A stretch of DNA of 64,000 nt from Halalkalicoccus jeotgali B3 (GTDB lineage Archaea; Halobacteriota; Halobacteria; Halobacteriales; Halalkalicoccaceae), in assembly GCF_000196895.1 (NCBI RefSeq), contig NC_014297.1, positions 372,001 through 436,000 of the forward strand. Reading direction: 5' to 3'. Position 1 is the stretch's first letter, and each line of letters starts with the position of its first letter. Positions 47,704 through 56,737 of this stretch are shown one piece after another. The position numbers and the translations under genes were made by a program. The notes beneath the pieces are model-generated. The model searched no databases and was not told the origin of the DNA. It saw nothing but the letters and a program-made list of their open reading frames with translations.

Positions 47704-48510
47704 ATGACGCAGATTCATCACTCGCTCGCCACAAACGGCGGTATGGAACTCGCAGCCCAGACGTGGCCCGAACTCGGGAGCTACTTCGAGACCGAATCGC
47801 TCGCGCTCGTCCCCCTCGGCTCGACCGAACAGCACGGCCCTCACCTGCCCGAGGGGACCGACCACATCATCGCCGAATCCCTCGCCCGCGCCGCGGCCGA
47901 CCGGACGGGCTATCTCTGTACGCCGACCGTGAACGTCGGCGTCAGTCCGCACCACCGCCAGTTCCACGGGACGATGTGGGTCGACGCGCCGGTCTTCCGG
48001 GATTACGTCGAGAGCCTCGTCTCGAACCTGACCTACCACGGCATCGACCGGGTGGTCTTCGTCAACGCCCACGGCGGGAACATCACCCACCTGCGGGAGG
48101 TCGGCCGCCGACTGCACGACCGCGAGGAGGCCTACGCTATCGAGTGGATGTGGGACGAAAGCATCCCCACGCTCGTCTCGGAACTCTTCGAGCAGAACGG
48201 TCCCCACGGCGGCCCCAAGGAGACGGCGATGATCCAGCACCTCGCGGGCGAACTCGTCCGAGAGGACCGTCTCGAGGACGCCCACGAGGGTGGCGTCGTC
48301 TTCCCGACCGACGACTCGCACCGAAACGGCGCGCGGACGTTCTACGACTGCATCGACAACTCCGCGAACGGCGTGTTCGGTGACCAGACGGATGCGACCG
48401 CAGAGAAGGGGAAACGCCTGTTCGAGGCCGCCACCGAACAGCTCTGTGAGCTCTGTGAGTGGCTCGACGAGCAGCCCTTCGAGGACCTCGTCGCGAAACC
48501 GCACGTCTGA
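47704..48510 (+). CDS. creatininase-family amidohydrolase
   Basis: 268 residues with PLGSTEQHGPHLPEGTDH (metal-binding Glu, His and Asp), VSPHHRQFHGTMW, VNAHGGNITHLREVG and the late HGGPKETAMIQHL. The family includes creatinine amidohydrolase, the archaeal FAPy deformylase ArfB of flavin/F420 synthesis, and MftE. Which reaction this one performs cannot be fixed. The ATG at 47704 matches the leaderless distance from the TATA box; an alternative ATG at 47743 (MELAAQTWPE) is where many relatives begin. Confidence 0.88.
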   Translation: MTQIHHSLATNGGMELAAQTWPELGSYFETESLALVPLGSTEQHGPHLPEGTDHIIAESLARAAADRTGYLCTPTVNVGVSPHHRQFHGTMWVDAPVFRDYVESLVSNLTYHGIDRVVFVNAHGGNITHLREVGRRLHDREEAYAIEWMWDESIPTLVSELFEQNGPHGGPKETAMIQHLAGELVREDRLEDAHEGGVVFPTDDSHRNGARTFYDCIDNSANGVFGDQTDATAEKGKRLFEAATEQLCELCEWLDEQPFEDLVAKPHV

Positions 48511-48542
48511 GACCGTCTCCGCCCCGCCAAAGTAGTAGGAAA

Positions 48543-48551
48543 CTTATATAT
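48543..48551 (+). promoter_or_regulatory. TATA box of a small haloarchaeal gene
   Basis: CTTATATAT about 25-30 bases upstream of the ATG at 48573, in an AT-rich island, gives a clear leaderless promoter. Confidence 0.6.
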
Positions 48552-48572
48552 TTCAGAAACTATATAATTTAC

Positions 48573-48785
48573 ATGAGTACGACGTCGAACGGACCGACCA
48601 GCTACACTCATTCGCGCGAGTTCACGTACGACGGCTATCGGATCCGGCTGCGGATCAACGACGATCGGATGAGCTATACCGCGGTCGCCTCTCGCGATGG
48701 TGAGGTGGTCTCTCGGCTGTTCGATCTCGGGCCCGAGGCGGCCGGGTGGTCACACTCGACGCTCGCCAGCCTGATCGTCGAGTGA
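48573..48785 (+). CDS. 70-residue conserved protein of unknown function
   Basis: 70 residues: MSTTSNGPTSYTHSREFTYDG, then short beta strands (YRIRLRINDDRMSYTAVASRDGEVVSRLFDL) and an ending helix (WSHSTLASLIVE). A TATA box at 48543-48551 supports the ATG at 48573. No family is recognised. The stop lies 50 bases before the methyltransferase start. Confidence 0.65.
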   Translation: MSTTSNGPTSYTHSREFTYDGYRIRLRINDDRMSYTAVASRDGEVVSRLFDLGPEAAGWSHSTLASLIVE

Positions 48786-48834
48786 GGCGCGGGCGAGTCG
48801 CCGTGGCTTTAGGCGAGCGTCCCGTTCTCTCCCC

Positions 48835-49434
48835 GTGAACCCGAACGACGTCAAGCGCCAGTGGGCCGAGCGCTCGGGCGAGTATTCCCCCGAGTACTAC
48901 GCCTACTACGGGCCCGACGAGGCGAGCGAACTGCTCCGGCGCACGCTCGCTTCGTACTTCGGATCGGACCCGGCGATCCTCGAACTCGGCTGTAGTTCGG
49001 GTCGCCACCTCGCACATCTCCACGAACACGGCTTTTCGGACCTCTCGGGCGTCGAGATCAACGACGAGGCCGTCGCCGTGATGGAGCGGACCTACCCCGA
49101 ACTGGCCGACGACGCGACCGTGTACGTCGACGCCATCGAGGACGTCCTCGCCGGCTTCGAGGACGACCGGTTCGACGCCGTCTACTCGGTCGAGACCCTC
49201 CAACACATCCACCCGGACAACGCGTGGGTGTTCGAGGACGTGACACGCGTCGCGAGCGACCTGCTACTTACGGTCGAAAACGAGGGCGACGGGGAGGAGT
49301 CGGTGAACTACGTCCGCGACGAGTTCCCGCTGTACTACCGCGACTGGCGCGCCGTCTTCGCCGAGTTCGACTGTCGAGAGGTCGAGTCCGAACGCCTGAA
49401 ACGTGACACGTTTCGAGCGTTTCGACCGGCGTAG
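48835..49434 (+). CDS. class I SAM-dependent methyltransferase
   Basis: 199 residues from a GTG start (VNPNDVKRQWAERSGEYSPEYYAYYG). The Rossmann motif I is ILELGCSSGRHLAHLHEHG, motif II SGVEINDEA, and FDAVYSVETLQHIH is the post-motif acidic loop. The start uses GTG because the homologous region extends upstream of any ATG. Substrate unknown; no neighbouring pathway genes help. Confidence 0.87.
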   Translation: MNPNDVKRQWAERSGEYSPEYYAYYGPDEASELLRRTLASYFGSDPAILELGCSSGRHLAHLHEHGFSDLSGVEINDEAVAVMERTYPELADDATVYVDAIEDVLAGFEDDRFDAVYSVETLQHIHPDNAWVFEDVTRVASDLLLTVENEGDGEESVNYVRDEFPLYYRDWRAVFAEFDCREVESERLKRDTFRAFRPA

Positions 49435-49767: not shown

Positions 49768-50016
49768 ATGACGGACACGACGACGATCCAAGCGCCGATG
49801 CCCGGCGTGTTCTACCGCCGCTCCGACCCCGAGAAGCCACCTCTGGCCGAACCCGGCGATCGGGTCGAGGCGGGCGAGACGATCGCCCTCATCGGCGTGA
49901 TGAAGAACTTCAACGACGTCACGACGGACGTTTCGGGCACCGTCAGCGAGTTCCTCGTCGAGAACGAGGCCGAGATCAAAGCCGGCGACGACCTCGTCGT
50001 CATCGACCTCGAGTAA
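49768..50016 (+). CDS. accB: stand-alone biotin carboxyl carrier protein
   Basis: 82 residues of a biotinyl/lipoyl domain: IQAPMPGVFYRRSDPEKPPLAEPGDRVEAG, with the modified lysine K46 in the hairpin GVMKNFNDV. It lacks any other domain, unlike the large haloarchaeal PccA/AccA proteins that fuse biotin carboxylase and carrier. Being stand-alone and close to a stand-alone biotin carboxylase (55403) and PxpB/PxpC, it is the probable carrier of this cluster. It is convergent with the amidase, 28 bases apart. Confidence 0.9.
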   Translation: MTDTTTIQAPMPGVFYRRSDPEKPPLAEPGDRVEAGETIALIGVMKNFNDVTTDVSGTVSEFLVENEAEIKAGDDLVVIDLE

Positions 50017-50044
50017 TCGCTCGGTTTCACCGTCCGCCGCGGAC

Positions 50045-51547
50045 TCAGTTTTCGAGCGCCGGCGCGGTCTCGGGTGGCCGACGAGGAGCCACCACCCGCT
50101 CGTAGGCGGCGGCCAGCCCCACCAGCGTCGCTTCGTCGTAGGGCTTGCCGATGAGTTCGACGCCCACCGGCAGGCCCTCCTCGGTGAGGCCGGCCGGCAT
50201 GGACACGGCACAACAGCCCGACTGGGAGGCGATGACGGTGTTGGTCGGGAACGTCAGCGTATCGAGTTCGCCCGCTTCGATCGAGGCCGCCGTCGGCGGA
50301 ACGACCTGCACGTCGGGACACAAGAGTACGTCCAGATCGTGGTCGGCATAGACTGTGAGGATCGACCGCTGGAAGGCCATCTGGGCGGCGACGCGCTCCC
50401 AGTAGTCGGGTTCGTCCTCGGGGTCTTCGGGGCCGTCCTCCGCGATACCGATCAGGAGGTCGAGGATCTCGTGATACTGGCCCGAGTCGTACAGTTCCGC
50501 GACCGAGTCGACCGGCGCGTCCTCGCGGGCGGCGAAGAAGTCGTTGAGGTCGCGTTTCGACTGGGCGATATACAGCGAGGTCCGCTCTATGTGTTCGTCA
50601 AGTGAGGGAATATCGACGGGATCGACGATCTCGGCTCCCGCCTCGGCCATGGTGTCGATAGCCTCGTCGACGAGTCGGGTGACTGGGCCGCTGTCGGGGT
50701 CATCGGGATCGCCGAAGGCGTCCCGCAGAACGCCGATCCGCGCGCCGCCGAGGGCGTCGGGATCGAGCGCGTCGGCGTAGGAGACGCCCTCGACGAACTC
50801 GGTGACGGCGGTGTACTCGTCGGACGGGTCGTAGCCGACGGCCACGTCGAGCACGGTCGCGAGGTCCGTGACTGTTCGCGTCATCGGCCCGGGGGTGTCC
50901 TGCGAGACGACGAGCGGGGACATCCCCGTCCGGCTCAGCAAACCGGGGGTGACGCGGATCCCGAAGAGGTTGTTGTAGGCGGCGGGCAGACGGATCGATC
51001 CACCGGTGTCCTCGCCGATCCCGACAGTCGCGAGGTTCGCGGCGACGGCAGCGCCGGTCCCGCTGCTCGATCCGCCGGGATCGCGATCCAGCGCGTAGGG
51101 GTTTTTCGTCCGTCCAAGCACCGACGAGTACCCGAACCACGAGGTCGCCCAGTCGGGCAGGTTCGTCTTCGCGAGGACGACCGCCCCCGCGTCCCGCAGT
51201 TCCTCGACCAGCGTCGCGTCGGCGCTCGGCTGGTAGTCCGCAAACGCCTCGGAGCCGAACGTCGTCCGCACCCCGGCCGTCTCGACTTGATCCTTGATCG
51301 CCACCGGGATCCCGTGAAGCGGGCCGACGAGCCCCTCCGATTCGAACGCTTCGTCGAGTTCCTCGGCCCGCTCGACGGCGTGTGGGTTCACGGTGACGAC
51401 CGCGTTGAGTTCCGGGCCGTTTCGGTCGTATGCCTCGATCCGCTGTTCGTACTGCTCGACGAGTTCGCGACACGTGAGCGTTCCCGCCTCGTAGGCGTCG
51501 TGGATATCGGCGACCGTCGCTTCGGTGATCTCGAATTCTTGTGCCAT
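50045..51547 (-). CDS. amidase-signature hydrolase
   Basis: 500 residues. The amidase Ser-cisSer-Lys triad is K85 (PVAIKDQ), S161 (DPGGSSSGT) and S184 (EDTGGSIRLPA). The full AS domain spans about residues 60-490. Amidase-signature enzymes include allophanate hydrolase, GatA and aliphatic or peptide amidases. GatA function is unlikely, because GatB/GatC are absent and the C-terminal part (LCPDVQVVPPTAASIEAG) is not GatA-like. It sits between BCCP and a decayed Bat regulator; in urea amidolyase the same fold hydrolyses the carboxylated product. Confidence 0.9.
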   Translation of the reverse strand: MAQEFEITEATVADIHDAYEAGTLTCRELVEQYEQRIEAYDRNGPELNAVVTVNPHAVERAEELDEAFESEGLVGPLHGIPVAIKDQVETAGVRTTFGSEAFADYQPSADATLVEELRDAGAVVLAKTNLPDWATSWFGYSSVLGRTKNPYALDRDPGGSSSGTGAAVAANLATVGIGEDTGGSIRLPAAYNNLFGIRVTPGLLSRTGMSPLVVSQDTPGPMTRTVTDLATVLDVAVGYDPSDEYTAVTEFVEGVSYADALDPDALGGARIGVLRDAFGDPDDPDSGPVTRLVDEAIDTMAEAGAEIVDPVDIPSLDEHIERTSLYIAQSKRDLNDFFAAREDAPVDSVAELYDSGQYHEILDLLIGIAEDGPEDPEDEPDYWERVAAQMAFQRSILTVYADHDLDVLLCPDVQVVPPTAASIEAGELDTLTFPTNTVIASQSGCCAVSMPAGLTEEGLPVGVELIGKPYDEATLVGLAAAYERVVAPRRPPETAPALEN

Positions 51548-51662
51548 TGGTACTCGAACGAGAGACTCCGCCGACCCGATTAAGCGTATTGTGTGGAAAA
51601 CGGAACGTATCGCCGCCGGACGGGACCGGGCGAGCGGCGACCGGCTCGACGAGCAGGCCGGC

Positions 51663-52321
51663 TCACTCCTCGGGCGGCGTGATGAGAACCTCGTTCTCCG
51701 CGAGCGCCCTGTGAGCCCGTCGGAACCGCTTTGAGAGCGCCTGTGGCGAGATCCCGAACTTCTCGGCCAACTCGGCCGATGTCGTTTTTCGGGGCGTCTC
51801 GTAGTAGCCCGATTCTAGCCCCGCGATCAGCGTCTCGCGCTGTGTCTCCGTGATCGAGGAGTGCGATTCGGTCGTCGGGGACGATGGGTGATACAGTCGC
51901 GTGAGATCGAGGACGAACTCGTTGTCGTCGATGTAGTCTTTGAACTATGTGAGGTCGTCTCCGAATCGAACCGTAACTGGAGTTCCCAGCGCTCGTCGCG
52001 TCCGGTCGCATCCAGCAGGACCGCGCCGGTTTCCGTGTACGCGTAGACGATCGACTCGACGTCCCGGATCCACTTCGCCCGATACAACACTGCACGGTCG
52101 AGTTCGTCGACCGTCCTGAGGTCTTCAACCGATGGGTCGTCTCTCGCCGCCGCCTCGAACGCCTCCCGGTCCCCACCCGCCGTCCAGAAATACGGCATGA
52201 TCTGATTGGGGCCGTGCGTGACGACGCGCTCGACCTCGACGACCATCCCGGGCACGTGGCATAGGGTGTCGTACAGTGCGAACTGTTCGGTCGGCACGGT
52301 GAATTCGGCGATGATGCTCAT
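51663..52321 (-). pseudogene. Bat-type HTH-10 transcriptional regulator, frameshifted
   Basis: The N-terminal part from the ATG at 52321 (MSIIAEFTVPTEQFALYDTL...) is a haloarchaeal bacterio-opsin-activator-like sensor region. It runs in one frame to about 51948 and then loses homology. The C-terminal HTH-10 domain (ITETQRETLIAGLE; TSAELAEKFGISPQALSKRF; ending LITPPEE) is in another frame and ends at 51663. A single missing base near 51945 restores a continuous reading (FxFKDYIDDNEFVLDLTRLY across the join). It probably once controlled the amidase or pxp genes. Confidence 0.85.
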
Positions 52322-52623
52322 GGGTGAAGGGTGTCGATGATACCACCGTCTGAACACGAGAATATATAAACACGTTTCTCTATCAACCCGTTGGCTTTGG
52401 CTTGTTGATCGCGTATGTCCTAGTGAACGCCACCATGGGGACGGCGAGGGGAGGGGATATACGAACCTCCACTGCGCTCATGGTTCCCCGCATGGGGCGT
52501 TCGACGGGTGCCTCTGACACACCGCCCGTTTTCGAACCGTTCTCGATCGATAGCGACGCCTCGGCGAGGCCACCGGATCGCCTCGGACGAAAGCTATAGT
52601 GCGCCCCGTCGCGAGTCTCTCGC
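52322..52623. other. intergenic control region between Bat pseudogene and pxpA
   Basis: The stretch holds GAATATATAAAC (52360-52371) 40-50 bases before the Bat gene start on the minus strand, and GCTATAGTGC (52592-52601) about 25-30 bases before pxpA. Between them I see no gene, only short frames without coding character. It is the divergent promoter region of the regulator and pxpA. Confidence 0.5.
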
Positions 52624-53385
52624 ATGGTACGGGTCGACATCAACTGTGACATGGGCGAGAGCTTCGGGAACTGGGAAATGGGCCGCGACGAGGCGGTAAT
52701 GCCCTACATCACCTCGGCGAACGTCGCGGGCGGCTACCATGCCGGCGATCCCCACGTGATGGACCGGACCGTCGCGCTCGCGTGCGAGCACGACGTGGGG
52801 ATCGGGATCCATCCGGGACTCCCCGATAAGATGGGCTTCGGCCGGCGGACGATGGACGTCACCCCCGAGGAGATGACCGAGTACGTCGTCTATCAGTTGG
52901 GGGCGCTCGACGCCTTCGCCCGCGCGAACGGCACGCACATCCAGCACGTCAAACCCCACGGCGCGATGTACTCGATGCTTTCCGAAAGCCCCGAGCACGC
53001 CCGCGCAGTCATGGAGGGGATCATCGAGGTCAATCCCGAGATCGTCTATCTGGCGACCGATACCAACATCTACGAGGTCGCCCGGGAGTTCGACTCCCTG
53101 CGGGCGGTCTTCGAGGGCTACGTCGACCTCACCTATCGTGCGGATCGCAGCCTCATCGTCGAACGCAAGAAGGAGTCGCTCGACCCCGAACTCGTCGCGG
53201 ATCGATTCGTGAGCATCGCCCTCGACGGCGAGGTCGAAGCCGCGGACGGCGAGATTATCGGCGTGCCCGCCGAAAGCATCTGTATCCACGGTGATACACC
53301 CAACTCCGTCGAGATACTCGAAGCGATCCACGAGCGGATCGCGGCCCACGACATCGAACTCGCGCCCCTCTCGGAGATCGCCTGA
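52624..53385 (+). CDS. pxpA: LamB/YcsF family protein, PxpA-like
   Basis: 253 residues with family signatures: VDINCDMGESFGNWEMG, SANVAGGYHAGDP (34-43), IHPGLPDKMGFGRR, HIQHVKPHGAMYS, YRADRSL and ICIHGDTPNS. PxpA binds 5-oxoproline in the PxpABC ATP-dependent 5-oxoprolinase. Here the near-invariant Cys of the ACGxHAGDP motif is Gly36, and HPGYPD reads HPGLPD, so this is a divergent member whose substrate may differ. It is convergent with pxpC, five bases apart. Confidence 0.9.
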   Translation: MVRVDINCDMGESFGNWEMGRDEAVMPYITSANVAGGYHAGDPHVMDRTVALACEHDVGIGIHPGLPDKMGFGRRTMDVTPEEMTEYVVYQLGALDAFARANGTHIQHVKPHGAMYSMLSESPEHARAVMEGIIEVNPEIVYLATDTNIYEVAREFDSLRAVFEGYVDLTYRADRSLIVERKKESLDPELVADRFVSIALDGEVEAADGEIIGVPAESICIHGDTPNSVEILEAIHERIAAHDIELAPLSEIA

Positions 53386-53390
53386 GTCGC

Positions 53391-54362
53391 CTACTCCAAG
53401 GCCTTTCGGATCGTCGCCAACCGCTCGCTTTGGTCCTCCCTCGCCGCCAGTGCCTCCTCGACCGTCACGGACTCGAACGAGACGGTGCCGTGGGTCGGGC
53501 GCTGGGCGAGACGATCCCGGTCGGGGCTGATGACCGTGGCGACCGTCGCGTAGCCCCCGCCGGTCACCGCATCGCGCATGACCACGATCGGCTCGTCGGG
53601 GACTTGGATCGAGCCGACGGGGTAGCCCAGATCGACGACGTTCGAGGGGTCCGGTCCGGCGCCGAAGGGCTGTTCGCGCTCGACGAACTCGATGTCGATC
53701 CCGTCGGTGAGCCGGTAGCCCACGCGGTCGGCCTCCGCGCCGACTTTCCACTCGGCGTCGAGAAACGCACGCTTGCACTCCTCGGTGAGCCGGTAGTCAC
53801 ACAGCCCCATCACGATCCGGATCGGGTCGTCCTCGCCGTAGCTCGGTCGATGACTCCCCTCGACTGCGCTCCCGGCCCGGTCGCTCCGGTCCCCGCTCTC
53901 CCCGAGCGCGAGCGAATCGCCCGCTTCGAGCGCCCGGCCCTCGTGGCCGCCCAGCCCGATCAAGGTGTACGTCGAGCGACTCCCCATGATCTCGGGGACG
54001 TCGATCCCGCCCGAGATGGCCAGGTAGGTTCGCGTGCCCTCGGTCGCGAACCCGAAGGCCAGTTCGTCGCCCGCCTCGACGGCGACCGCCTCCCAGGTGG
54101 GCATCGCCTCGCCGTTGAGCTCCGGGGACATATCGGGGCCGGTGACCGCGATCACCCGTTCGTCCCGGAACTCGACCGTCGGCCCCTGATAGGTGCATTC
54201 GAGGGTCGCCGCTCCTTCGGGATTGCCGACGAGGGCGTTGGCCACCTCGTGTGCGAACCCGTCCATCGCGCCCGAGGGCGGCATGCCGATGTGGTACTGG
54301 CCAAAGCGTCCGGTGTCCTGAACGGTCGTCGAGAGGCCGCCGTCACGGATTTCGATGCTCAT
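53391..54362 (-). CDS. pxpC: PxpC / KipA, biotin-dependent carboxyltransferase family
   Basis: 323 residues. It has IRDGGLSTTVQDTGRFGQYHIGMPPSGAMD, ALVGNPEGAATLECTYQGP, AVTGPDMSPELNGEAMPTWEAV, YLAISGGIDVPEIMGSRSTYTLIGLGGHEGRAL and GDP-type C-terminal RDAVTGGGYATVATVI, all diagnostic of the KipA (AHS2) fold. This fold is one half of the carboxyltransferase module in urea carboxylase and one subunit of PxpABC. The ATG overlaps the pxpB stop by four bases. Confidence 0.92.
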   Translation of the reverse strand: MSIEIRDGGLSTTVQDTGRFGQYHIGMPPSGAMDGFAHEVANALVGNPEGAATLECTYQGPTVEFRDERVIAVTGPDMSPELNGEAMPTWEAVAVEAGDELAFGFATEGTRTYLAISGGIDVPEIMGSRSTYTLIGLGGHEGRALEAGDSLALGESGDRSDRAGSAVEGSHRPSYGEDDPIRIVMGLCDYRLTEECKRAFLDAEWKVGAEADRVGYRLTDGIDIEFVEREQPFGAGPDPSNVVDLGYPVGSIQVPDEPIVVMRDAVTGGGYATVATVISPDRDRLAQRPTHGTVSFESVTVEEALAAREDQSERLATIRKALE

Positions 54363-55261
54363 TCGAGGGCCTCCACGAGTTCGTCGTTGTACTCGTAGGG
54401 TCGCTCGAAGAACTCGCCCGGGACGAACTCCGTCTGCTCGTACGTGTACTCGTAGGTCCCCGCCTCGACGCGCTCCCTGATCGCGTCGTACTCCTCGCGG
54501 TCGATCTGGCGGAATTTGATGATGTCGCCCGGATTGAGAAAGACCAGCGAGTCCTCGAAGCCCGGTAGCTCTTGCTTCACGTCGAGCACTTCGACGGGGG
54601 TGCGCCCGAACAGCTGGTAGCCGCCGGCCCCCGGAACGGGGTAGATCGCCGTAAACGCTCCCCCATAGCCGATCGCCCGGCTCGGGGTGTGGGTCCGCGG
54701 GGCGACGTATTTGGGTACCTCGATCTGCCGGTCGCGGGGCACCATCTGGAAGGCGAAGGGAAGTCCGGGGACAAAGCCCATCATCGTCACCATGTGTGGC
54801 TGGCCCGCGTGGGCCTCGATGAACGCCGCGACGCTCTCGTAGCCGTTGATCCGCGCGGAGTACTCGAGGTCCGTCGAATCGGGATCCTGATGGCGCTCCC
54901 GGAAGTCCATCAGCGCCTCCTCGGTCCACGGGTCCTCGTAGAGGACGGGGATCTCGACCACGCGGGTGTCCCAGCGGTACTCGGTCAGTTCGACCGATTC
55001 CTCGAGGTCCCGTAGCTCCTCGATCAGCGCGTCGGGGCGGAGGGTTTCGGGGTCGAACTGGATCAGATAGGAGGCGTTGGCCGGACAGATCTCGTTGACG
55101 CCGTCGAGATCGCGCTCGCGGATCTGCTGGGTGATCGCCATCGCCCTGAAGTTGGCGTCGAAGCTCATCTCCTCGGCCAACTCGACGAACACGTGATCGT
55201 CCCCGCCGTGCTCGTAGCGGACGTCGGTAAGCTCCGTCCGTCCAATGGTTGTTGCTGGCAT
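54359..55261 (-). CDS. pxpB: PxpB / KipI, carboxyltransferase partner subunit
   Basis: 300 residues of the KipI (AHS1) fold: VFVELAEEMSFDANFRAMAITQQIRE, EIPVLYEDPWTEEALMDF, MVTMMGFVPGLPFAFQMV, PRTHTPSRAIGYGGAFTAIYPVPGAGGYQLFGRTP and VFLNPGDIIKFRQID. The C-terminal about 50 residues (ERVEAGTYEYTYEQTEFVPGEFFERPY) extend it beyond the roughly 230-250 residues of bacterial KipI. It pairs with PxpC, which overlaps it by four bases. Divergent from the biotin carboxylase across 141 bases. Confidence 0.93.
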   Translation of the reverse strand: MPATTIGRTELTDVRYEHGGDDHVFVELAEEMSFDANFRAMAITQQIRERDLDGVNEICPANASYLIQFDPETLRPDALIEELRDLEESVELTEYRWDTRVVEIPVLYEDPWTEEALMDFRERHQDPDSTDLEYSARINGYESVAAFIEAHAGQPHMVTMMGFVPGLPFAFQMVPRDRQIEVPKYVAPRTHTPSRAIGYGGAFTAIYPVPGAGGYQLFGRTPVEVLDVKQELPGFEDSLVFLNPGDIIKFRQIDREEYDAIRERVEAGTYEYTYEQTEFVPGEFFERPYEYNDELVEALE

Positions 55262-55402
55262 ACACCGAACCGGTTTCGGCGGTAAGGGTATATACTCTGC
55301 TCGACAGTCCGGTTGTCAGTCATCTTCCCGCTGACTGTACGCCGTGTCACCGACCGGCCCCACAACTGCGCGCTTATATCGCCGGTCCGCGTACCGCCGG
55401 TA

Positions 55403-56737
55403 ATGTTCGAACGAGTGCTGATCGCAAACCGGGGAGAGATCGCCGTGCGGGTGATCCAGGCGTGTTACGACGCGGACGTAACGCCGGTCGCCGTCTACAG
55501 TGATACCGACGAGACGGCCAAACACGTCCGGTTGGCTGCCGAGGCCCACCACATCGGCGCGTCGGTCGCCCGTGAGAGCTATCTCGACCGTGAGGTCATC
55601 ATCGGGGCCGCCCGGGAGACCGGCGTCGACGCGATCCATCCCGGCTACGGCTTTCTCGCCGAGAACGCCGCCTTCGCCGCCGCCGTCGAGGACAGCGAGT
55701 TCGCCTGGATCGGCCCGCCCAGCGACGTAATGAGCGACTTCGGCGAGAAGACCCGCGCGCGAACACTCATGCAGCGCGCGGACGTGCCGATCGTTCCGGG
55801 GACGACCGATCCCGTCGCCGACGCCGAGGAGGCGAGGGAGTTCGGCGAGGAACACGGCTATCCGATCGCCATCAAGGCAGAGGGTGGTGGTGGCGGACGT
55901 GGGATGAAAGTCGTCGGTGACCCCGAGGAGGTCGACGCGGCGTTCGAAGCAGCCCGCCGCGAGGGCAAGGAGTACTTCGACAACCCGAACGTCTACGTCG
56001 AGCGCTATCTCGACGACGCGCGCCACATCGAGGTGCAGGTGATCGCCGACACGCACGGCAACGCGATCCACCTCGGCGAACGCGACTGTACGCTACAGCG
56101 CCGCCAGCAGAAACTACTCGAGGAGACGCCCGCACCCGGCTTGGACGACGAGGAGCGAACGGACCTCTGCGAGGCTGCCCGCCGCGGGATCGCCGAAAAC
56201 GACTACGTCAACGCTGGGACCGTCGAGTTCCTCTATCAGGACGGCGACTTCTACTTCCTCGAAGTGAACGCCCGGATCCAGGTCGAACACACGATCACCG
56301 AGGCTGTCACGGGGATCGACCTCGTCGGCTGCCAGCTACGGGTCGCCGCCGGCGAAAAGCTGCCCTACGCCCAAGCGGACGTCGATCCTCGTGGAGCCGC
56401 CATCGAGTTCCGTATCAACGCCGAGAACCCGGAGGAATCGTTCGCGCCGATGCCCGGCACCCTGGAGACGTATCGACCACCTCGCGGCTTCGGCGTCCGC
56501 GTCGACGACGGTGTGGACCAGGGCGACGCCATCAGCCCGTACTACGATTCGATGATCGCAAAGTTCGTCGTCACCGGCGCGGATCGCGAGGAGGCGATCC
56601 AGCGGGGACAACGCGTTCTGCGCGAGGCCGAAATCGAGGGCCTCCCGACGACGATCCCGTTCCACCGCGAGATGCTCGCAGACGAGGGCTTTCGCGCGAA
56701 CGAGCACACGACGACGTACGTCGACGAGCTGTTTTGA
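55403..56737 (+). CDS. accC: stand-alone biotin carboxylase
   Basis: 444 residues. It begins [19 protein letters not shown] and has [13 protein letters not shown] (ATP-grasp glycine loop), [16 protein letters not shown] and the C-terminal TTYVDELF. No BCCP or carboxyltransferase domain is fused. The stand-alone form with a stand-alone BCCP is unlike the usual haloarchaeal acyl-CoA carboxylase with BC-BCCP in one chain. Position next to pxpB suggests it loads carboxyl groups for the KipI/KipA transferase. Confidence 0.93.

Follow-up and report, generated by a model that had tools for sequence, protein, structure and literature searches.

A five-gene cluster in Halalkalicoccus jeotgali and several bacterial phyla predicted to encode a biotin-dependent, lactam-opening enzyme

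The haloarchaeon Halalkalicoccus jeotgali B3 carries, within a 64,000-nucleotide stretch of its genome (NC_014297.1, positions 372,001 to 436,000, forward strand; hereafter the window), a cluster whose core consists of five genes, encoding a stand-alone biotin carboxyl carrier protein (BCCP), a stand-alone biotin carboxylase (BC), homologues of PxpB and PxpC, and PxpA. Comparison with related loci gives good support to the prediction that BC, BCCP, PxpB and PxpC constitute one biotin-dependent carboxylase with PxpA as its partner, and the assembly is probably a multi-subunit enzyme that opens cyclic amides (lactams) using ATP and biotin. A single biotin-dependent enzyme encoded by separate genes had been proposed in an earlier reading of the sequence alone (the sequence-only reading), and it is upheld by gene linkage, co-occurrence, a catalytic lysine of the carboxyltransferase, adjoining biotin transporters and the self-sufficiency of the acyl-CoA carboxylase of the host.

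Conserved linkage across phyla

A scan for the long form of PxpB returned 80 loci, or 87 together with the window and its relatives, and the bacterial survey covered related long-form loci, plasmid records and the genomes reached through those loci. BCCP, BC, PxpB, PxpC and PxpA all lie within the fetched stretch in 75 of the 87, and many of the others end at a contig edge. Such five-gene sets are found in more than ten orders, spanning Halobacteria, Bacilli, Actinomycetes, Rubrobacteria and Betaproteobacteria, and also on alphaproteobacterial plasmids. The genes run PxpA-BCCP-BC-PxpB-PxpC in actinomycetes and proteobacteria and PxpB-PxpC-BCCP-BC-PxpA in Bacilli, and haloarchaea have several divergent layouts. 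That the same content is kept despite rearrangement is strong evidence of a shared function, and a linkage recurring over phyla in so many gene orders is not a matter of chance. Moreover, the biotin transporter component BioY is encoded between BC and PxpB in Rubrobacteraceae, and in one haloarchaeon (G035) BioY, CbiQ and an energy-coupling factor (ECF) ATPase adjoin PxpA; these placements are two separate links to biotin.

Several loci depart from the basic set. In six from Bacilli and relatives (L226, L231, L232, L233, L238 and L239), a single BC/BCCP set is accompanied by two long-form PxpB-PxpC pairs, and in most of them by PxpA as well, an arrangement that looks like one carboxylase serving two carboxyltransferases. 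On plasmids of Klebsiella, Shinella and L. plantarum (L244, L245 and L246), genes for short-form PxpBC and BC are joined by those for an NRAMP transporter and a putative hydro-lyase. In Shinella the latter has a match to D-glutamate cyclase (PF07286), a hint that 5-oxoproline is handled in connection with biotin.

Co-occurrence in haloarchaea

The haloarchaeal samples comprised 59 relatives and the whole class of 391 genomes. Among the relatives PxpA is present in six, all six of which also have the short BCCP and PxpC, and the congeners G001 and G003 lack all three. Stand-alone BC genes are confined to the genomes with PxpBC, and nearly all other BCs of the 59 are fused proteins of about 580-790 residues of the propionyl-CoA carboxylase type. 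Across the class, PxpA occurs in 51 of 391 genomes and a dedicated BCCP in 47 of these 51 (6 relatives and 41 of 45 others), almost always at most about 10 kb from PxpA; in the remaining four, PxpB and PxpC are likewise absent around PxpA. In one incomplete genome (L044), PxpC, PxpB and BC lie at a contig end. The sequence-only reading had named a lack of conserved co-occurrence as one outcome that would speak against it, and neither the 87 loci nor the haloarchaeal genomes gave that outcome.

Two haloarchaeal loci are of separate note. A decayed cluster (L043, G038:C11, 8834-9580) retains a PxpC fragment with in-frame stops and a BCCP, and no PxpA, PxpB or BC was found in its vicinity. In L195 (G339:C1, 2680-7187) a second PxpA directly adjoins a xanthine-dehydrogenase-type molybdenum (Mo) hydroxylase, without carboxylase genes.

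Type of carboxyltransferase

Profile scores set the PxpB of the window apart from the 5-oxoprolinase subunit of that name. On the PxpB equivalog TIGR00370 it reaches 86.9 bits, below the cut-off of 145.55, and on the urea carboxylase model TIGR02712 it scores higher (126.5 bits), and two further long-form PxpB proteins show this pattern too; TIGR00370 is passed by E. coli PxpB (355.6 bits) and by a short-form PxpB of Aneurinibacillus (258.6). PxpC exceeds the cut-off of TIGR00724 with 251 bits and fails the PxpC 5-oxoprolinase equivalog NF045499 (200.3 versus 500), and PxpA passes the PxpA model NF003814 (297.9 bits, cut-off 226).

In an alignment with the urea amidolyase of K. lactis, Lys184 of PxpB falls exactly on Lys1605, the probable general base of carboxyl transfer in urea carboxylase, whose mutation severely inhibits activity (PMC5770610). 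Over 139 sequences, which include related genomes and second copies and are hence not independent, all 107 long-form and all 4 urea carboxylase rows have Lys at this position, and all 28 short-form rows have Arg. All haloarchaeal PxpB sequences analysed are long-form. The PxpB tree splits the short form from the long form plus urea carboxylase (support 100/99) and places the window protein neither among the short forms, to which E. coli PxpB belongs, nor in the urea carboxylase clade. Further, the best fold match of its AlphaFold model (mean predicted local distance difference test score, pLDDT, 84.9) is urea carboxylase 3va7, with Z 26.2 over 280 residues including the C-terminal extension; short-form structures align with Z of about 17-20 over about 200 residues (E. 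coli PxpB, Z 18.5, 200 residues). Model scores, Lys184, tree and fold together identify PxpB as a urea-carboxylase-type carboxyltransferase subunit and not a canonical 5-oxoprolinase PxpB. Linkage to BC and BCCP was also considered as a marker of the Lys-type PxpB alone, and was ruled out by short-form clusters that have BC and BCCP.

Biotin carboxylase, carrier protein and other biotin enzymes of the host

The usual BCCP motif, AMKM, is replaced by VMK[NSTQ][FY] in 83 linked BCCPs, all of which keep the lysine and the preceding methionine, and Lys46, already named for this BCCP by the sequence-only reading, is confirmed as the lysine of this motif in the window. In 83 linked BCs, the signature residues of the enzyme are kept at a level of at least 95%. 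Overall, three features expected of a biotin-dependent carboxylase were found: BC catalytic residues, a BCCP target lysine with BirA in the genome, and a carboxyltransferase of known type.

The two proteins have different histories. The closest relatives of the window BCCP are bacterial pxp-linked BCCPs (in the PDB, E. coli AccB BCCP), and its likeness to the BCCP of the host carboxylase is weak. The window BC clusters with haloarchaeal propionyl-CoA carboxylase BCs, with 61% identity to that of the host itself, apart from the BCs of bacterial clusters; those of Bacilli group with urea carboxylase BCs, and those of actinobacteria and proteobacteria form a third group. Monophyly of all linked BCs is rejected by the approximately unbiased (AU) test (p 3.6e-7), and the initial expectation that BC was co-inherited with the carboxyltransferase was rejected by the trees. 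Correlation of pairwise distances between subunits (rho 0.79 for BC, 0.70-0.84 for the others) does not set BC apart, so its history is read from the tree and the AU test. On these phylogenies, BC joined the same carboxyltransferase on at least three independent occasions, PxpB and BCCP being the cluster's own type, and such repeated recruitment suggests that carboxybiotin is needed. The haloarchaeal BC probably derives from the host lineage's own propionyl-CoA carboxylase; the direction of transfer would follow from the simpler reading, a duplication, since that carboxylase is common and the cluster rare in haloarchaea.

The host genome has two BCs in total. The other is fused to a BCCP and encoded with an acyl-CoA carboxyltransferase and BirA (C1:1299670-1304132; BirA at C1:1303446, TIGR00121 179.5 bits), an operon that therefore needs nothing from the window. 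A second acyl-CoA carboxyltransferase of family PF01039 (C1:2115331) has no BC of its own, though co-occurrence does not favour a link between it and the window BC, and a search of the host genome found no other PxpC and no urea carboxylase.

Proposed mechanism

Given these comparisons, five steps can be envisaged, the first two well supported by comparison and the last three more conjectural. BirA would place biotin on Lys46 of the small BCCP. BC would then form carboxybiotin from ATP and bicarbonate, and PxpB-PxpC, a carboxyltransferase of the urea carboxylase type in which Lys184 would act as general base, would transfer CO2 to the substrate. The acceptor may be the ring nitrogen of a lactam, whose ring carbonyl would be made easy to attack by the N-carboxy group, and PxpA may then hydrolyse the ring. 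The resulting carbamate would shed CO2 to give the amino acid, so that CO2 would activate the substrate only transiently, at the expense of ATP. The overall logic would be like that of urea amidolyase, with PxpA replacing allophanate hydrolase. Likely substrates would be small lactams yielding omega-amino acids, the best single guess being 2-pyrrolidinone, giving gamma-aminobutyric acid (GABA), and the amidase encoded beside the cluster may be an accessory that feeds or finishes the pathway in some lineages.

Substrate clues and alternative explanations

Clues to the substrate come from the neighbours of the cluster. Just upstream of it in Ruegeria sp. TM1040 are genes for a succinate-semialdehyde dehydrogenase and for a true GABA transaminase, which scores 832 bits (cut-off 724). 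Xanthine-dehydrogenase-type Mo hydroxylases, which can produce lactams from cyclic imines, lie downstream in Diaphorobacter and Sulfitobacter, a Rubrobacter plasmid encodes a Mo-hydroxylase subunit, and a Phyllobacterium cluster ends with an 'allantoin permease'. Of 41 haloarchaeal clusters, 17 have a class III aminotransferase nearby, where the number of such genes in the host genome would predict about 2; the comparison is not corrected for phylogenetic dependence. These neighbours fit a putative route from lactam to omega-amino acid to transamination, of which 2-pyrrolidinone would be the simplest case. Moreover, bacteria with a long-form cluster usually also have a canonical short-form PxpABC elsewhere in the genome, and some have a fused urea carboxylase; functional overlap with either is possible and not required. 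Since canonical PxpABC is usually present and the neighbours fit omega-amino-acid products, 5-oxoproline is less likely than another lactam. Of the substrates offered by the sequence-only reading, a lactam is thus favoured by the neighbouring genes, and 5-oxoproline is possible and less likely.

Several observations weigh against the proposed lactam-opening enzyme. The loci were retrieved with peptide patterns of the long form, which tilts the sample towards that clade. Short-form PxpB with Arg is also linked to BC and BCCP in several bacteria, sometimes with D-glutamate cyclase, so that the lysine may be no marker of biotin dependence, and 5-oxoproline is still a possible substrate. PxpA also occurs without BC and BCCP. 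The neighbour genes that point to the substrate differ between lineages, and no class III aminotransferase was found near the cluster in the window. Finally, the predicted activity, biotinylation and complex formation of the cluster proteins rest on comparison.

The same biotin machine could act on 5-oxoproline, as a biotin-dependent 5-oxoprolinase in place of canonical PxpABC. It is favoured by a PxpA that passes the 5-oxoprolinase model, by the uniformly long-form PxpB of the haloarchaea analysed and by the short-form clusters that tie BC, BCCP and D-glutamate cyclase to 5-oxoproline chemistry, but PxpB and PxpC fail the 5-oxoprolinase equivalogs, long-form-cluster bacteria usually keep the canonical enzyme and the neighbours fit other products; overall, it is considered unlikely. 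Were the enzyme instead a plain ATP-dependent PxpABC 5-oxoprolinase with BC and BCCP as unrelated neighbours, the database names would be correct, and ATP hydrolysis by canonical PxpBC is reported, as summarised in PMC8453981. The linkage across phyla in many orders, the strict co-occurrence, the repeated independent recruitment of BC and the urea-carboxylase-type lysine make this very improbable.

Each of the four congeners with the cluster has an amidase-signature gene next to it, the modules are those of urea amidolyase and the carboxyltransferase fold is nearest urea carboxylase, all of which would suit a split urea amidolyase in which allophanate would be the product of BC, BCCP and PxpBC and would be hydrolysed by the amidase. 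The amidase, though, misses both allophanate hydrolase models by far (TIGR02713, 184 versus 511 bits; NF006043, 205 versus 487) and is hence not an allophanate hydrolase, and it is absent from most clusters. PxpA would have no role in urea breakdown, and some of the same genomes have a genuine fused urea carboxylase, in a separate clade, with an amidase neighbour of its own. Hardly any weight can be given to this explanation, and the 'split urea amidolyase' of the sequence-only reading does not hold in the strict sense. It is least credible that BC and BCCP lie here by chance and serve an acyl-CoA carboxylase, for instance through the second PF01039 protein of the host, although BC is nearest the haloarchaeal propionyl-CoA carboxylase BCs. 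The host carboxylase operon is self-sufficient, the stand-alone BC tracks PxpBC across genomes, and BCCP is of the bacterial pxp type and not that of the host carboxylase; pairing of this BC with an acyl-CoA carboxyltransferase, a second outcome on which the sequence-only reading would have fallen, did not arise.

Relation to known systems

The proposed lactam-opening enzyme shares with urea carboxylase and urea amidolyase (K. lactis KlUA, PDB 3va7 and 5i8i) the BC, KipA/KipI-type carboxyltransferase and BCCP modules and the general-base lysine. It differs in having separate polypeptides, a PxpA, an amidase that is no allophanate hydrolase and a BCCP with an AccB-like thumb; against the single-polypeptide model TIGR02712 (cut-off 1303.85) its proteins give only partial scores of 505, 230, 126 and 22 bits. 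With canonical PxpABC (E. coli; KipI, KipA and YcsF of B. subtilis) it has in common the PxpA, PxpB and PxpC homologues and the pxpBC overlap, but canonical PxpB is shorter, has Arg in place of Lys184 and passes TIGR00370, and E. coli pxpABC has no adjoining BC or BCCP.

A structure from 2025 (PDB 9yx5) has short-form PxpB/PxpC of M. smegmatis (MSMEG_0435-MSMEG_0436) bound to a biotin-dependent long-chain acyl-CoA carboxylase complex and may, by analogy, be taken as a physical precedent for pairing PxpB/PxpC with a biotin carboxylase; it differs in the Arg at the Lys184 position and in the shared AccA3, without a dedicated BC and BCCP. Lactam opening driven by ATP is known from lactamases of the caprolactamase/OPLAH/HyuAB type, of which the enzyme studied needs bicarbonate (PMC8453981). 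These enzymes differ in using an unrelated ASKHA-type ATPase with a zinc subunit and no biotin. In the fungus A. nidulans, a eukaryote, LamA and LamB are reported to be needed, with GABA transaminase and an amidase, for the use of 2-pyrrolidinone, and LamB is the namesake of the PxpA family. A search of the open literature, with subscription papers outside its reach, found no paper on BC/BCCP-linked PxpABC as an enzyme.

Organisation of the cluster

All six gene families recognised by the sequence-only reading are present with strong profile scores (Table 1), on a 2.8-Mb contig; Halalkalicoccus paucihalophilus has a PxpB of 96% identity to that of the window. The order is BCCP(+), amidase(-), broken regulator(-), PxpA(+), PxpC(-), PxpB(-) and BC(+), with an overlap of 4 nt (ATGA) between PxpC and PxpB. 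BC and PxpB are transcribed divergently, so that the cluster is made up of several transcription units and is not a single operon. The BC start had been placed at the TTG at 55313, and the ATG at 55403 is the most likely one instead.

Table 1. Features of the cluster, with positions in the window.
Feature	Position	Strand	Evidence
Stand-alone BCCP, 82 aa, AccB-like thumb	49768..50016	+	Family PRK07051/NF005457, 93.4 bits (cut-off 87); PF00364 57.8 bits
BCCP Lys46 codon, predicted biotinylation site	49903..49905	+	Family motif VMK[NSTQ][FY]
Amidase-signature enzyme, 500 aa	50045..51547	-	PF01425 345.8 bits
Broken BAT/HTH_10-type transcription regulator	51663..52321	-	PF15915 61 bits, N-terminal part; three-frame translation
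PxpA (LamB/YcsF), 253 aa, metal-type hydrolase predicted to open the ring	52624..53385	+	PF03746 288.9 bits
PxpC-like carboxyltransferase subunit (KipA, CT_A_B), 323 aa	53391..54362	-	PF02626 285.1 bits
Long-form PxpB-like carboxyltransferase subunit (KipI, CT_C_D), 300 aa	54359..55261	-	PF02682 145.7 bits
PxpB Lys184 codon, equivalent of K. lactis urea carboxylase Lys1605	54710..54712	-	Alignment
Stand-alone BC, 444 aa	55403..56737	+	PF02786/PF00289/PF02785, complete BC; NF006367 604 bits (cut-off 597)

The amidase is a recurrent but optional partner. Besides the congeners, a number of further haloarchaea have it near the cluster, as does an actinobacterial metagenome-assembled genome (58%); orthologues of at least 55% identity stand near other clusters, and a minority of clusters have the amidase. 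A pair of PxpA and amidase without PxpB and PxpC occurs in two haloarchaea (L186, L187) and on a Microbacterium plasmid (L248). A frameshift and a TAG within the frame disrupt the regulator between amidase and PxpA, and in three congeners the space between these two genes is too small to hold it. On the other side, a creatininase-family gene and a methyltransferase (47704-49434, +) adjoin BCCP, in the same order in the congeners L038 and L039 and not in G006. Creatininases likewise open a cyclic amide, but a role in the pathway for the gene at 47704 was rejected, as it adjoins the cluster only in the closest congeners.

Significance

The chances seem evenly balanced that the cluster represents an unrecognised class of biotin enzyme in haloarchaea and several bacterial phyla, opening lactams by N-carboxylation through carboxybiotin, hydrolysis by PxpA and spontaneous decarboxylation, the haloarchaeal version being built from a bacterial-type carboxyltransferase, BCCP and PxpA and a BC derived from the acyl-CoA carboxylase of the host. 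If so, many genes now called 'PxpB/PxpC 5-oxoprolinase' and 'acetyl-CoA carboxylase' in haloarchaea and bacteria would be misnamed, and the Lys/Arg position of PxpB and the BCCP motif could serve as markers for their re-annotation. Further, cyclic amides would join acyl-CoAs, pyruvate/2-oxoglutarate and urea as a substrate class of biotin enzymes, and the breakdown of lactams would have a biotin-based route distinct from that of the caprolactamase type.

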